DNA of 64,000 nucleotides from Streptomyces sp. NBC_00775 (lineage in GTDB: Bacteria > Actinomycetota > Actinomycetes > Streptomycetales > Streptomycetaceae): positions 3,658,001 through 3,722,000 of the forward strand of contig NZ_CP108938.1 in the NCBI RefSeq assembly GCF_036347135.1, written 5' to 3'. Every line of letters begins with the position of its first letter. Within the stretch, counting starts at the first letter, position 1. The notes under the pieces are model-generated. The model was not told the origin of the DNA, ran no database searches, and worked only from the letters and a program-made list of their open reading frames with translations. The position numbers were made by a program, and so were the translations under genes. Shown here piece after piece: positions 27,615-34,059 of this stretch.

Positions 27615-28916
27615 ATGCGCACCACCACAGGAGCCAGTACAGGAGGGCCGACCGAAGCCGACCCGTTCGACGCCGGATCCGGCGGCCTCCTGCGTCAGCC
27701 GAAGGCCGTCTGGGCGACCGCGGGCGCGTCCGTCGTCGCCTTCATGGGCATCGGGCTCGTCGACCCGATCCTGCCGTCCATCGCCAAGGGCCTGGACGCC
27801 ACGCCGAGCCAGGTCTCGCTGCTCTTCACCTCGTATTTCCTGATCACCGCCGTCGCGATGCTGGTGACCGGCTTCGTCTCCAGCCGCATCGGCGGCAAGA
27901 AGACTTTGCTGCTCGGCCTCGCGCTCGTCGTGGTCTTCGCGGGGCTCGCGGGCACCTCTGGCTCGGTCGGCGAACTCGTCGGCTTCCGGGCCGGCTGGGG
28001 CCTCGGCAACGCCCTCTTCGTCTCGACCGCCCTCGCGGTCATCGTCGGCGCGGCGGCCGGCGGCAGCGCCGCGGCGATCCTGCTGTACGAGTCGGCGCTC
28101 GGCCTCGGCATGGCGTGCGGGCCACTGCTGGGCGCACTGCTCGGTGACGCCAGCTGGCGCTACCCGTTCTTCGGCACCGCGTTCCTGATGGCGGTCGGCT
28201 TCCTGTGCATCACGGCGTTCCTGAAGGAGCAGCCGAGGCCCGCGAAGAAGACGTCCCTGCTCGACCCGGTCAGGGCGCTCGGCCACGGCGGACTCGCCTC
28301 GGCGGCCGTCTCGTCGTTCTTCTACAACTACACGTTCTTCACCGTGCTGGCCTTCACCCCGTTCGTGCTGAACATGACCCCGTACAAGTCGGGTGCCGTG
28401 TTCTTCGCGTGGGGTGTGCTCCTGGCGGTCTTCTCGGTGCTCGTGGCCCCGCGTCTGCAAGCGCGGTTCGGCTCGCTCAAGGTGCTCGGCGGCTCGCTGG
28501 TGCTGCTCGCCGCCGACGTCCTCGTGCTCGGGTACGGCAGCCACACCACCGCCGTCGTCTGCACGATCCTGTCCGGTGCGTTCATCGGCGTGAACAACAC
28601 GGTCTACACCGAGCTGGCGCTGGGCGTGTCGGACGCACCGCGTCCGGTGGCGAGCGCCGGCTACAACTTCGTGCGGTGGTTCGCGGCCGCGGCGGCGCCG
28701 TACTTCGCGCCGAAGATCGAGGAGTGGAGCAACATCCACGTCCCGTTCGTGGTCGCGGCGGTCACGGCCGTCCTCGGTGCGGTGGTGGTCTTCGTACGAC
28801 GGAACGCGCTCGCTCTCCCCCACTCTCGGCTTCGCTCGAGCGGGGGGACCCCCATCGCCGAGGAGCTTCAGCCCCGGCACGCCACCGAGGACAGTGTCGC
28901 CGTGTTCGCCAACTGA
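27615..28916 (+). CDS. MFS transporter (drug exporter type)
   Basis: A 433-aa major-facilitator protein with about twelve to thirteen spans. GFVSSRIGGKKTLLLG is the loop 2-3 motif A region, and FRAGWGLGNALFVSTALAVI resembles the DHA1 drug-exporter motif B. An efflux role is inferred. ATG at 27615 has GAGGA upstream; earlier in-frame ATG at 27570 overlaps the promoter. The C-terminal residues ALPHSRLRSSGGTPI are encoded by the 40-bp repeat that also interrupts the ABC ATPase gene. The promoter carries an operator-like repeat, but no regulator is adjacent. Confidence 0.9.
   Translation: MRTTTGASTGGPTEADPFDAGSGGLLRQPKAVWATAGASVVAFMGIGLVDPILPSIAKGLDATPSQVSLLFTSYFLITAVAMLVTGFVSSRIGGKKTLLLGLALVVVFAGLAGTSGSVGELVGFRAGWGLGNALFVSTALAVIVGAAAGGSAAAILLYESALGLGMACGPLLGALLGDASWRYPFFGTAFLMAVGFLCITAFLKEQPRPAKKTSLLDPVRALGHGGLASAAVSSFFYNYTFFTVLAFTPFVLNMTPYKSGAVFFAWGVLLAVFSVLVAPRLQARFGSLKVLGGSLVLLAADVLVLGYGSHTTAVVCTILSGAFIGVNNTVYTELALGVSDAPRPVASAGYNFVRWFAAAAAPYFAPKIEEWSNIHVPFVVAAVTAVLGAVVVFVRRNALALPHSRLRSSGGTPIAEELQPRHATEDSVAVFAN
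28817..28856. repeat. 40-bp interspersed repeat, copy 2 (inside MFS gene)
   Basis: Identical over 40 bp to 8464-8503, here in the sense orientation near the 3' end of the MFS gene and without breaking the frame. Confidence 0.85.
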
Positions 28917-28945: not shown

Positions 28946-29530
28946 TCAGTCCAGGGGAACGGACTTGCGCAAGGGATCGCGCAGGTCCGTTCCGCCGTTC
29001 AGCCAGCGCTCCTGGAGGGCGTTCGCGCCGTGCACGCGTTTCCACGCCGCCTCGTTGGGCGTCATCGGGAGCAGCGGCAGGAAACGTACGGGATCGGCGG
29101 GGGCGTCCAGCTCCAGGTCCTCCACCAGGCCGCCGGACTCCGCGACCAGGACGGAGGTGAACGGCGCGCCGGGCCACAGGGGTTCGCCCACGTCCAGCGA
29201 GGCACCCGAAGCCACCACCAGGCCCTCGACCTGCGGGGACGCGCCGAGCACGGCGAGCGGCCTGAGCACCTTGTCGGTGTCGACGACGCCCGCGCGGACC
29301 GAGAGGATCAGCTCGGCGCGCGGTCCCTTCACCGGGTCGGCGAGGACCACCGTGGGGTCCGCCATCGGCTGGGCGGACATACCGAGCGTCGCGTAGCGGA
29401 CGATGTCGCCCTCTGTGAAGCGCAACACTTCGATGCGGTCGGTGCCGAGAAAGGTGACCGCGGCCCGTGCGTCGGGTTCGCCCAGCGCGGAGCGCAAACG
29501 GGCCTCGACCAGAGGAAGAACATCAGCCAT
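28946..29530 (-). CDS. suppressor-of-fused (SUFU) domain protein
   Basis: A 194-aa protein of the bacterial SUFU-like family: VTFLGTDRIEVLRF, a central RYATLGMSAQPM, and the characteristic late block FLPLLPMTPNEAAWKRVHGA. In bacteria such proteins often act as immunity-like or binding modules; no toxin gene is adjacent, so a specific role is not claimed. ATG at 29530 is preceded at six bases by TATGCT, pointing to a leaderless mRNA, and it fits the domain start better than the upstream codon at 29587. Confidence 0.85.
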   Translation of the reverse strand: MADVLPLVEARLRSALGEPDARAAVTFLGTDRIEVLRFTEGDIVRYATLGMSAQPMADPTVVLADPVKGPRAELILSVRAGVVDTDKVLRPLAVLGASPQVEGLVVASGASLDVGEPLWPGAPFTSVLVAESGGLVEDLELDAPADPVRFLPLLPMTPNEAAWKRVHGANALQERWLNGGTDLRDPLRKSVPLD

Positions 29531-29542
29531 GCGCCGAGCATA
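29531..29542 (-). promoter_or_regulatory. leaderless-type -10 box (SUFU gene)
   Basis: TATGCT on the minus strand, six bases before the ATG at 29530. Confidence 0.5.
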
Positions 29543-29603
29543 GGCCGCGTCAATTCCCAAGGAGCGCACCGGACCCCGCGTCAACAACGGGCAAAGCGGC
29601 GGC

Positions 29604-30125
29604 TTGACGCTTCAGTGCGCTGATAGTCTTGGCCGCTGGTCGGGGCAGCGTGCAGATGGGGGCACCACCCAGGCCCTTAAGGCGCTGGGGGAGTCGCTCT
29701 CAAGCTCCGACGCACTGAGACTGATCTGGCTCCCCTTTGGAGGGAGACGGACTCCCCTTCGGGGGATGGCTCGTCCCTCACGGGGGACCGACCGGAGGAG
29801 GTGGGGCTGCAATGGACCGAAGTCGACCGTGCAGTACCACCCGCTCTTCCGGTCGCTGAGTTCTGTAGCTGGTTCCGCTTCTTGGGTCTTGCTGGCTACT
29901 GCCTCCCGCAAACGTGTGCATACGTGTCAGCGTTGTCCCGGTGCACCACGGAAGAGCGCTTCGTTTCCGCCTGATCTGTCTGATCTGAATCAGTAGCGAA
30001 GCTGCCACCGCGACGGTGCGGTGCTCCCCGCTTTGTGGACGTACCAAACATCCGCAGTCAGGACGTCCCCATTCCGGGTAGTTTCAACCGTCGCCGGCCG
30101 CCTCCGTTGCGAGAAGGAGCCTGCC
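29604..30125 (+). promoter_or_regulatory. long structured 5' leader of corA
   Basis: TTGACG (29604-29609) and TAGTCT (29624-29629), with a short 14-bp spacer, could start a transcript near 29636, leaving a leader of about 490 nt before corA. Three small hairpins follow one another (29730-29746, 29752-29766, 29773-29788, with CCCC-TTC-GGGG in the middle), then a perfect ribosome site and a 15-codon ORF at 29812. CTGATCTG occurs twice near 29970-29990. This is the architecture of a Mg-responsive attenuator or riboswitch leader. I could not match the M-box consensus, so the class is open. Confidence 0.55.
29812..29859 (+). CDS. putative 15-codon leader peptide upstream of corA
   Basis: ATG at 29812 follows GGAGGAGGT (29794-29802), an almost perfect anti-SD match at nine bases. 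It encodes MDRSRPCSTTRSSGR and stops at TGA 29857. Such a strong ribosome site on a mini-ORF inside a structured leader suggests translation-dependent control of the downstream transporter gene. It is too short for conservation to be judged here; expression is inferred. Confidence 0.45.
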   Translation: MDRSRPCSTTRSSGR

Positions 30126-31241
30126 ATGTCGATGATCCGTGACCTGCGTGCCGCGGTCCGCCCCCGCCCCTCGCTGCGCAGCAAGGACAGCGGCTCGTAC
30201 GACACCACCCGTGACCCCGGGACCCCGTCGGCCGTGGTCGACTGCGCGGTCTACCGGGACGGCGCCCGCGTCGAGACCCGCGAGCCGCTGACGCCGCACG
30301 AGGCGATGCGTCAGGTGCACCGCGACGGCGGCTTCGTGTGGATCGGCCTGCATGAGCCGACCGAGGCCGAATTCGCCGGTATCGCCCGGGAGTTCGGGCT
30401 GCACCCGCTGGCCGTCGAGGACGCCGTCCAGGCCCACCAGCGGCCCAAGCTGGAGCGCTACGACGACTCCCTGTTCACCGTCTTCAAGACCATCCACTAC
30501 GTGGAGCACGACCAGCTGACCGCCACCAGCGAGGTGGTGGAGACCGGCGAGGTCATGTGCTTCACCGGACGGGACTTCTTCATCACCGTCCGGCACGGCG
30601 GGCAGGGCTCGCTGCGGGCGCTGCGCCACCGGCTCCAGGACGACCCGGAGCTGCTCGCCAAGGGCCCCTCCGCCGTGCTGCACGCGATCGCCGACCACGT
30701 CGTCGACGGGTACATCGCGGTCGCGGACGCCGTGCAGGACGACATCGACGAGGTCGAGACCGAGGTGTTCTCGCCGGGCCGCAAGGGCACGCCGCGCGGC
30801 ACCGACGCCGGACAGATCTACCAACTCAAGCGTGAGGTACTGGAGTTCAAGCGGGCGGTGTCGCCGCTGCTGCGCCCCATGCAGCTGCTGAGCGAGCGGC
30901 CGATGCGGCTGATCGACCCCGACATCCAGAAGTACTTCCGGGATGTCGCCGACCACCTCGCCCGGGTGCAGGAGCAGGTCCTCGGCTTCGACGAGCTGCT
31001 CAACTCCATCCTCCAGGCCAACCTCGCCCAGGCCTCCGTCGCGCAGAACGAGGACATGCGCAAGATCACGTCCTGGGCCGCGATCATCGCCGTACCGACG
31101 ATGGTCTGTGGCGTCTACGGCATGAACTTCAAGTACATGCCCGAGCTGCACGCGCGCTACGGCTACCCGGTCGTCATGGGCATCACGGTCGGCCTCTGCC
31201 TCTCGATCCACCGCATCCTCAAGCGCAACGGCTGGCTGTGA
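30126..31241 (+). CDS. corA: CorA family magnesium/cobalt transporter
   Basis: A 371-aa inner-membrane protein. The large N-terminal cytosolic domain includes WIGLHEPTEAEFAGIAREF, the HPLAVEDAVQAHQRPKLERY segment and a long coiled stalk helix (LLNSILQANLAQASVAQNED). Two C-terminal spans flank the selectivity motif YGMNF near residue 334, and the C-terminus is basic (HRILKRNGWL). It forms a pentameric Mg2+ channel in this family. GAGAAGGAG precedes the ATG. The MgtE-like and DUF1003 genes follow 1.5 kb downstream, and a long structured leader lies upstream. Confidence 0.95.
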   Translation: MSMIRDLRAAVRPRPSLRSKDSGSYDTTRDPGTPSAVVDCAVYRDGARVETREPLTPHEAMRQVHRDGGFVWIGLHEPTEAEFAGIAREFGLHPLAVEDAVQAHQRPKLERYDDSLFTVFKTIHYVEHDQLTATSEVVETGEVMCFTGRDFFITVRHGGQGSLRALRHRLQDDPELLAKGPSAVLHAIADHVVDGYIAVADAVQDDIDEVETEVFSPGRKGTPRGTDAGQIYQLKREVLEFKRAVSPLLRPMQLLSERPMRLIDPDIQKYFRDVADHLARVQEQVLGFDELLNSILQANLAQASVAQNEDMRKITSWAAIIAVPTMVCGVYGMNFKYMPELHARYGYPVVMGITVGLCLSIHRILKRNGWL

Positions 31242-32778: not shown

Positions 32779-34059
32779 ATGGCCGCAAGCGCCCCCCGGA
32801 TCTTCGTCTCGCACCTCGCCGGTGTCGCCGTCTTCGACCCTAACGGCGACCAGGTGGGCCGCGTGCGGGACCTCGTCGCCATGCTGCGCGTCCGGCGGCA
32901 GCCGCCCCGGCTGCTCGGCCTCGTCGTCGAGCTGTCCACGCGCCGCCGGATCTTCCTGCCCATGACCCGGGTGACCGGCATCGAGTCCGGCCAGGTCATC
33001 ACCACCGGCGTACTGAACGTGCGCCGGTTCGAGCAGCGGCCCACCGAACGGCTCGTCTTCGGCGAACTGCTCGACCGGCGCGTACACCTCGTCGAGACGA
33101 ACGAGGAGGTGACCGTGCTCGACGTGTCGGTCCAGCAGCTGCCGGCCCGCAGGGACTGGGAGATCGGCAAGGTCTTCGTGCGCAAGGGGCGCGGCGGGGC
33201 CTTCCGGCGCGCCAAGGGCGAGACCCTGACCGTCAGCTGGTCCGCCGTCACCGGGTTCTCGCTGGAGGAGCACGGACAGGGCGCCGAGAGCCTCCTCGCC
33301 ACCTTCGAGCAGCTGCGCCCGGCCGACCTCGCGAACGTGCTGCACCACCTGTCTCCGAAACGGCGCGGAGAGGTCGCCGCCGCGCTCGACGACGACCGTC
33401 TCGCCGACGTCCTCGAAGAACTCCCCGAGGACGATCAGATCGAGATCCTCGGCAAGCTCAAGGAGGAGCGCGCGGCCGACGTCCTGGAGGCGATGGACCC
33501 GGACGACGCGGCCGACCTGCTCGCCGAACTGCCCGCCGAGGACGTGGAGCGGCTGCTGACGCTGATGCAGCCCGACGAGGCGGCCGACGTACGGCGGCTG
33601 ATGGCGTACGAGGAGAAGACCGCCGGCGGTCTCATGACCACCGAGCCGATCGTGCTGCGGCCCGACGCGACGGTCGCCGACGCGCTCGCCCGGGTCCGCA
33701 ACCCCGACCTCTCCCCCGCGCTCGCCGCCCAGGTGTACGTGTGCCGCCCGCCGGACGAGACACCGACCGGCAAGTACCTGGGCACCGTCCACTTCCAGCG
33801 GCTCCTGCGCGACCCGCCGTTCACGCTGGTCGGCGCGCTCGTCGACGACGACCTCCAGCCGCTGGACCCGGAGGCCGCGCTGCCCGTCGTCGCCGGGTTC
33901 TTCGCGACGTACGACATGGTCGCGGCGCCGGTCGTCGACGAGAGCGGCTCGCTGCTCGGCGCGGTGACCGTGGACGACGTACTGGACCACATGCTGCCCG
34001 AGGACTGGCGCGAGACGGAGTTCCACCTCGAAGAGGAGGAGGCTCCCCATGGCGCCTGA
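32779..34059 (+). CDS. MgtE-like cytosolic protein: PRC barrel, MgtE-N and CBS domains
   Basis: A 426-aa protein. The N-terminal part (FVSHLAGVAVFDPNGDQVGR) resembles a PRC barrel with a second copy near 110-160. MgtE N-terminal superhelix repeats follow (LADVLEELPEDDQIEILGKL, AADLLAELPAEDVERLLTLM), then two CBS motifs (GGLMTTEPIVL; VDDDLQPLDPEAALPVVAGF). No MgtE membrane domain is present, so it cannot be the channel itself; it may sense Mg2+ or nucleotides and act on a partner. ATG with GGAGG upstream. Its last codons overlap the DUF1003 start by 11 bp. Confidence 0.88.
   Translation: MAASAPRIFVSHLAGVAVFDPNGDQVGRVRDLVAMLRVRRQPPRLLGLVVELSTRRRIFLPMTRVTGIESGQVITTGVLNVRRFEQRPTERLVFGELLDRRVHLVETNEEVTVLDVSVQQLPARRDWEIGKVFVRKGRGGAFRRAKGETLTVSWSAVTGFSLEEHGQGAESLLATFEQLRPADLANVLHHLSPKRRGEVAAALDDDRLADVLEELPEDDQIEILGKLKEERAADVLEAMDPDDAADLLAELPAEDVERLLTLMQPDEAADVRRLMAYEEKTAGGLMTTEPIVLRPDATVADALARVRNPDLSPALAAQVYVCRPPDETPTGKYLGTVHFQRLLRDPPFTLVGALVDDDLQPLDPEAALPVVAGFFATYDMVAAPVVDESGSLLGAVTVDDVLDHMLPEDWRETEFHLEEEEAPHGA

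Follow-up and report, generated by a model that had tools for sequence, protein, structure and literature searches.

A conserved leader with a mini-ORF and competing helices upstream of one corA paralogue in Streptomyces, probably a ribosome-operated switch

Within the window, as we call the whole 64,000-nt stretch of DNA analysed here, from a Streptomyces genome of 11.1 Mb in a single contig, a corA gene occupies positions 30126-31241 of the + strand (stop codon included), behind the SD sequence GAAGGAG at 30113-30119, read from the sequence. Domain and structure matches identify the product, which begins MSMIRDLR, as CorA: PF01544 is matched at E 5.8e-57, the best solved relatives are CorA proteins and the GMN motif is present as YGMNF, with a score below the equivalog cut-off of TIGR00383 (188 vs 200.75 bits). 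Roughly 490 nt of leader precede the gene, and beyond them a SUFU-domain gene, recognised by domain search (28946-29587), runs divergently from corA. Some 1.5 kb 3' of corA lies a gene whose product combines an MgtE N-terminal domain with CBS and PRC-barrel domains (32794-34056), so two Mg2+-related genes are neighbours here. The initial annotation had drawn attention to a long leader holding a 15-codon ORF with a strong SD, and the SD, the ORF and the ATG of corA at 30126 are all as it described them.

The putative leader promoter, read from the sequence and from an alignment of 30 leaders, consists of TTGACG (29604-29609) and TAGTCT (29624-29629) on the + strand. Both elements are present where they had been claimed, about 500 nt before corA, but a consensus promoter scan returned no promoter at this site; their spacing of 14 nt is short for a sigma-70 site, as 16-18 nt is usual between such elements. 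In other Streptomyces leaders TTGAC and TA(G/C)TCT recur, likewise about 14 nt apart. Further downstream the window's leader has received a dispersed repeat (29657-29693, without assigned strand) that lies outside the conserved element and has six matches elsewhere in its own genome and many more across Streptomyces genomes. The three successive hairpins that had been proposed can all be read by eye (29730-29746, 29751-29767 and 29773-29788), but only the last, P0, which lies on the + strand directly 5' of the leader SD, is generally conserved (89.9% of cells paired and one compensatory cell in 48 sequences). The first two (29730-29767, + strand) are lineage-specific: by eye, similar sequence is found in about 6 of the 30 aligned leaders for the first and about 10 for the second, and they were excluded as parts of the element. 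Folding energy alone gives no support to a structured leader, because the whole leader folds no better than its shuffles (z -1.25, with 13 of 100 shuffles equally good).

Conservation is concentrated in a block of 81 nt (29771-29851) that takes in the P0 hairpin, the strong SD and the 15-codon ORF. A first search found it in 37 of 61 genomes, which were every genome of the same genus, while the remaining 24 gave no match; a wider sample had 285 positives among 295 Streptomyces genomes, 284 of them with a single copy, and at the level of sequence the leader holds as more than a chance observation. Among the ten negative genomes three had no match to this CorA and seven had best matches of 62-66% identity. 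R1, a sequence-only model built from 48 sequences, found no block at ten CorA loci of block-negative genomes (L037-L046, 10 of 11) and none at the five other CorA loci of the window's own genome; the block and this particular CorA are therefore inherited together. The neighbourhood travels with them, with corA downstream in 110/110 Streptomyces leaders and in 38 of 40 distant loci (the exceptions being L192 and L193), a SUFU match in the same stretch in 110/110 and in 37 of the 38 distant corA loci, and, the window's own locus apart, no SUFU match at any of the 16 CorA loci compared. The divergent orientation of SUFU was seen in the 30 leaders read and in 78 of 80 among the named matches listed. 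One genome outside the family (G037, locus L199) has leader and corA beside a divergent MaoC-like neighbour with no SUFU match, and the leader therefore belongs to corA; its association with one corA orthologue is supported.

Beyond the genus, R1 matched 127 of 150 Streptomycetaceae genomes in 15 of 17 genera at E <= 1.4e-5, and 133 of the 150 in 16 genera at E <= 0.01. The six weak matches that make up the difference (E 4.8e-4 to 0.009), including all four of genus g16, were not counted; one of them, L193, lacks the codon core as well as any corA match and was set aside as chance. At the level of the order 103 of 119 genomes matched at E <= 1e-4, among them G037 of a second family (f2), and at the level of the class 22 of 246, with a single one of the 22 from outside Streptomyces. 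The exception (G517) lies inside a reading frame that we take from its sequence to be sufB-like and was rejected as a coding coincidence. In a sufB-like frame of a distant actinobacterium (L198:1485-1520) about 20 bases are identical to the mini-ORF core, which was judged coincidental. A codon-pattern scan of named genomes returned at least 119 records, of which the 80 listed come from Streptomyces, Kitasatospora, Actinacidiphila and one further actinobacterium; among these listed matches corA follows within 700 nt in 78 loci, the other two being cut by the edge of the locus. No match to the element was found in the viral collection.

The mini-ORF at the centre of the block (29812-29859, + strand) reads MDRSRPCSTTRSSGR* in the window, with codons 1-9 conserved. 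Its core, MD[R/P/T]SRPCST, was recognised in 178 of 179 leaders, a set that includes some genomes twice. MDPSRPCST and MDRSRPCST are the commonest forms, with MDTSRPCST and MHTSTPCST in other genera and MNTSQPCST in G037. The start codon is ATG or GTG at near-constant spacing from the SD, and the mini-ORF conservation that the initial annotation had proposed to check is present, with changes that fit a coding sequence: synonymous substitutions at codons 2 (GAT/GAC), 4 and 6 (mostly CCN) and CCN at codon 3, and in-frame inserts of 3 nt (L025, L051) or 6 nt (L029, L077) within the conserved part, the 6-nt inserts encoding D-P and E-P with an exchange of D for E. Codon 3 is mostly CGA, CCN or ACC, the CGA type of the window (MDR) being present in 89 of the 173 leaders counted. 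On this pattern of substitution the mini-ORF is most likely translated. Three codons, CGA at position 5, TGC at 7 and AGT at 8, are more conserved than the peptide requires; CGA at codon 5 is kept in 161 of 173 leaders almost without synonyms, while the 173/173 for AGT arises by construction, since the search pattern demands it. Streptomyces uses both AGT and CGA rarely. Past codon 10 neither the peptide nor the stop codon is conserved, and in five leaders (L007, L011, L116, L122 and L127, probably one lineage) a one-base shift of frame precedes the final codons, whose letters are nearly unchanged. These letters, which we call arm 2, are therefore kept for RNA pairing.

Arm 2 (29842-29855, + strand; CGCTCTTCCGGTCG, the final ORF codons) has two potential partners. 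Upstream, arm 1 (29789-29804, + strand), delimited from alignments and holding the leader SD (GGAGGAGG, 29794-29801), pairs with arm 2 and with CCACC just 5' of it; downstream, an island of conserved sequence (CGGAAGAGCG, 29949-29958, + strand) forms 10 pairs with 29842-29851. As arm 2 can pair with either arm 1 or the island, the two helices exclude each other, and the structured RNA suspected in the initial annotation would take the form of these alternative pairings. In the window the arm 1/arm 2 duplex is predicted at -30.5 kcal/mol (z -3.9) and the arm 2/island duplex, the weaker of the two, at -26.2 kcal/mol (z -2.5).

The island, CGGAAGAGC, is an exact complement of arm 2 in otherwise variable surroundings. 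When changes were placed on the corA tree for 163 leaders, pairs 1-8 were formed in 1258 of 1304 cells, a figure biased by eight leaders whose islands were recognised by their complementarity and added to the other 155. Pair 2 went through 11 or more changes among C-G, U-G and U-A without ever being broken (163/163), and pair 6 changed between U-A and C-G and is broken in 27 leaders. Observed pairing in the row-shuffle set (155 of 178 leaders; 6 without an arm-2 anchor and 17 without a patterned island, from which the eight just mentioned came, were left out) was 79.6% against 78.4 +/- 0.6% after shuffling (maximum of 2000: 80.4), a null that is barely exceeded because most positions do not vary; slid versions of the pairing reach 42-50%. 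By pattern the island is present in 102 of the 110 Streptomyces leaders; among the other eight, L067, L081 and L082 carry a GAAGAAC form and were later included. When arm 2 was allowed to choose its duplex partner freely, the best one overlapped the island in 82 of the 110. Mean z values are modest, at -1.15 in Streptomyces and -1.02 at the distant loci. In L168, L169 and L174 arm 2 meets a different but complementary partner (z -4.2 to -5.0), and in L176 the complementarity is likewise kept with other letters. No convincing island was found in genera g15 and g18 (L158-L160, L162-L164), and by the patterns used L085 has neither the island nor the domain beside corA described below.

The pairing of arm 1 with arm 2 is weakly supported by such comparison, especially in distant genera. 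Within Streptomyces its covariation is 0.077 against 0.071 +/- 0.002, with 9 of 500 shuffles as good and two pairs changed on both sides, a weak signal because arm 1 hardly varies there. The mean z of the duplex is -0.90 over 110 Streptomyces leaders, and at the 38 distant loci it did not surpass shuffled sequence in strength (mean z -0.21, no locus below -2). Two distant leaders have rebuilt the helix with other letters, L158 as CGAGGGAGGU with ACCUCCCUCG and L199 with 16 of 18 pairs by our count, and both rebuilt helices appear in the minimum-energy folds. The covariation that the initial annotation had proposed to look for is thus present in the arm 2/island helix and in the domain beside corA, but weak in the SD hairpin within Streptomyces.

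That domain (30001-30101, + strand), delineated in Streptomyces by covariation and cluster-wise folding, is built of P1 (30001-30006 with 30096-30101, GCCGUC/GACGGC, of whose 6 pairs the window keeps 5), CCCG/CGGG (30027-30030 with 30075-30078) and GGACGU/ACGUCC (30037-30042 with 30063-30068), which form one long hairpin system in most Streptomyces leaders. In 40 sequences 90.1% of cells are paired, and covariation reaches 0.138 against 0.094 +/- 0.009 after shuffling (0/500), slid versions remaining at or below 0.075. The structures scored here and for the SD hairpin were named from single sequences or from our own reading of the alignments, so that they are favoured over the slid versions; RNAalifold on the whole block and on a MAFFT alignment of the domain gave a poor consensus, and cluster-wise folding with named structures was used in their place. 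By its anchor pattern the domain is present in 120 of 178 leaders and absent in all 38 distant-locus leaders and in 20 others, which include a Streptomyces clade (L024, L051, L078-L080, L114, L118) and L085; the pattern probably misses variants in L052, L063 and L071. In that clade the mini-ORF is kept and the island mostly so, and a different conserved sequence, ACCUCCCACCCGUACGG..., replaces the domain. Just 3' of the domain a possible SD-masking pair, CUCC/GGAG (30102-30119, + strand), is suggested by eye and by the folding of one leader cluster, a weak indication; in Streptomyces the domain, being next to this SD, probably also regulates how corA is translated. The idea that arm 2 itself masks the corA SD was rejected, the complementarity being short and, by eye, not kept.

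A U-rich stretch (29959-29968, + strand), enriched in Streptomyces and not in other genera, comes directly behind the island. In Streptomyces the 18-nt segment that follows it averages 37% T against 19% for the leader as a whole, and in 65% of 102 Streptomyces leaders this segment belongs to the top 10% of windows; among 22 leaders of other genera there was no T enrichment at this place (mean T 0.21, median rank 0.32). A simple consensus scan for terminators found none on the + strand. An intrinsic terminator is plausible in Streptomyces, but it would not be general to the other genera. The island was also considered as a second promoter and rejected, since to the eye only a few leaders have TTGAC in front of it and none shows a -10 behind. 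Near the end of an MFS gene of the window a palindromic, pyrimidine-rich stretch (28814-28855) resembles, by eye, one that follows the island in L049.

Taken as regulation, the conserved element is well supported, its structure fairly so and its signal weakly. We think it probable that the leader acts in cis as a ribosome-operated switch for one CorA paralogue, through translation of the conserved mini-ORF. As the RNA emerges with no ribosome on it, the arm 1/arm 2 hairpin would form first, hiding the leader SD and at the same time withholding arm 2 from the island. A ribosome loading on the leader SD would open this hairpin and, once it had read the ORF and left, arm 2 would be free to pair with the island; in Streptomyces the resulting helix, together with the U-rich tract, would cause premature termination. 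Efficient translation of the leader would thus turn corA off and poor translation would turn it on. The arm 2/island state is the likely OFF state in Streptomyces because the U-rich tract follows it. The most likely input is Mg2+ in the cytoplasm, which would influence how the short peptide is translated, a choice drawn from the nature of the gene and from the analogy with corL and mgtL. We infer, then, the Mg2+ signal, the direction of control and the termination.

A leader-ORF switch of a Mg2+-transporter gene is a known kind of device, and we found no such description for this phylum. Leader ORFs in Mg2+ control have been described in enterobacteria: in E. coli and Salmonella, by the rule proposed above for the present leader, efficient translation of corL or mgtL lowers transporter expression, according to the accessible parts of two reports (PMC11552253, PMC11282234). 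As far as those parts describe them, corL/corA and mgtL/mgtA share with the present leader a Mg2+-transporter gene, a leader ORF inside the first stem and what appear to be mutually exclusive stems; the present leader differs in its phylum, in having no sequence relation detectable by Rfam and, in Streptomyces, in the extra domain beside the corA SD. Its consensus peptide, MD[R/P/T]SRPCST, also differs from the EPDP type of MgtL. Acidic and proline traits like those of MgtL do occur, as MDP in many leaders and as MDRDP or MDREP in L029 and L077, with MDR in the window and MDT elsewhere; Asp-Pro at the N-terminus in many leaders, like the inserts that read D-P or E-P, may recall the destabilising motif of MgtL, and the case for proline and acidic runs of the enterobacterial type is weak here. 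More tentatively, and with some doubt, the leader may be a Mg2+ sensor that evolved independently in the streptomycete order. The ribosome translating the nine-codon core MD[R/P/T]SRPCST would do the sensing, and its peptide- or codon-specific destabilisation or arrest at low Mg2+ would pick the helix and so set corA expression, convergent with mgtL and corL by way of a different peptide and, in Streptomyces, a second domain for control of translation.

At gathering score no Rfam family matches the leader. Rfam holds an M-box model, and with no covariance-model match to the M-box among the results the initial annotation was right that its signature is missing. The absence of a corL/corA-leader or corA-motif match is meaningful only if Rfam 15 includes such a model. 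In E-value mode two weak microRNA-precursor matches to a hairpin appeared below their gathering scores and were judged chance. The gammaproteobacterial corA motif RNA, a structured element that likewise lies directly 5' of corA, has 325 representatives, all from Gammaproteobacteria or metagenomic sequence in the part of the report available (Stav et al. 2019, PMC6429828). Closer in phylogeny is the mycobacterial pe20 M-box with its uORF, described in the accessible text as an actinobacterial Mg2+ leader (PMC12810186); it shares with the present leader a small ORF and Mg2+ control, which is here a proposal, and differs in that no M-box model matches ours and in that our ORF sits inside the switch. 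The leader-peptide attenuators of S. lividans (trpL, leuL, ilvL and others; eight are listed in the part available, corA not among them; PMC8079986) resemble it in a short ORF, competing hairpins and coupling of translation to transcription, but MD[R/P/T]SRPCST lacks a run of codons for a regulatory amino acid. S. clavuligerus Term-seq reports 96 novel premature transcripts and a further survey covers 50 genomes, neither mentioning corA in the main text (PMC8269248, PMC11109978), nor does the accessible text of a uORF review (PMC11550727). Our literature search, whose scope excluded most subscription papers, found no description of the Streptomyces corA leader. If the proposed switch is real, control of Mg2+ uptake through the ribosome has more than one origin, and one particular CorA out of the several that a Streptomyces genome encodes becomes open to regulatory manipulation; the compact peptide core and the defined competing helices make the proposal testable in a single strain.

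The alternative that survives best leaves the switch as it is and moves its output, to Rho-dependent termination or to corA translation only, so that the arm 2/island helix would not be an intrinsic terminator. We regard this as a real possibility, short of probable: the other genera have no U-rich tract after the island, the Streptomyces domain offers covarying helices and a possible SD-masking pair for control of translation, and Rho has been reported, in the parts of the papers available, for the E. coli corA leader and for Salmonella corA and mgtA (PMC11552253, PMC11282234). The T content behind the island in Streptomyces (37% vs 19%, and the top 10% in 65% of 102 leaders) stands against it.

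It is unlikely, in our judgement, that the same two-state leader is triggered by ribosome stalling on the SRPCST codons, whether caused by an arrest peptide, by the AGT and CGA codons through their rarity, or by a shortage of charged tRNA or an inhibitor. A ribosome stalled early would cover arm 1 only, and the arm 2/island helix would then be the ON state, against which the U-rich tract of Streptomyces argues. The strong conservation of the peptide at codons 4-9, the retention of CGA at codon 5 (161/173) and of the pattern-required AGT at codon 8, and the position of arm 2 at about codons 11-15, within reach of the ribosome footprint, would all suit stalling. Yet the core has no single-amino-acid run such as attenuators have, its C, its P and even its R are replaced in some leaders, and CorA is not known to be linked to any amino acid.

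Sensing by a protein-free metal riboswitch in the corA-proximal domain, with the mini-ORF a passenger, seems very improbable; the domain does covary above all 500 shuffles, but no other part of the leader is conserved as widely as the mini-ORF block, and the domain anchor is missing by pattern in 38/38 distant leaders and in the 20 others, some of them Streptomyces. Compared with the ribosome-operated switch, an independent small RNA or small protein acting elsewhere is scarcely credible as an explanation of the block, for all its very high conservation over 81 nt and its survival at L192 beside SUFU, in an intact-looking leader and with no corA match in the stretch examined, given that it stands directly 5' of corA in 110/110 Streptomyces leaders and 38/40 distant loci, has one match per genome in 284 of 285 positive Streptomyces, conserves neither the end of its ORF nor the stop codon, and is carried by 0/10 CorA loci of block-negative genomes. 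At the place where corA would be expected in L192 (L192:1-1000) there is a frame on the other strand that is presumably transposase-like.
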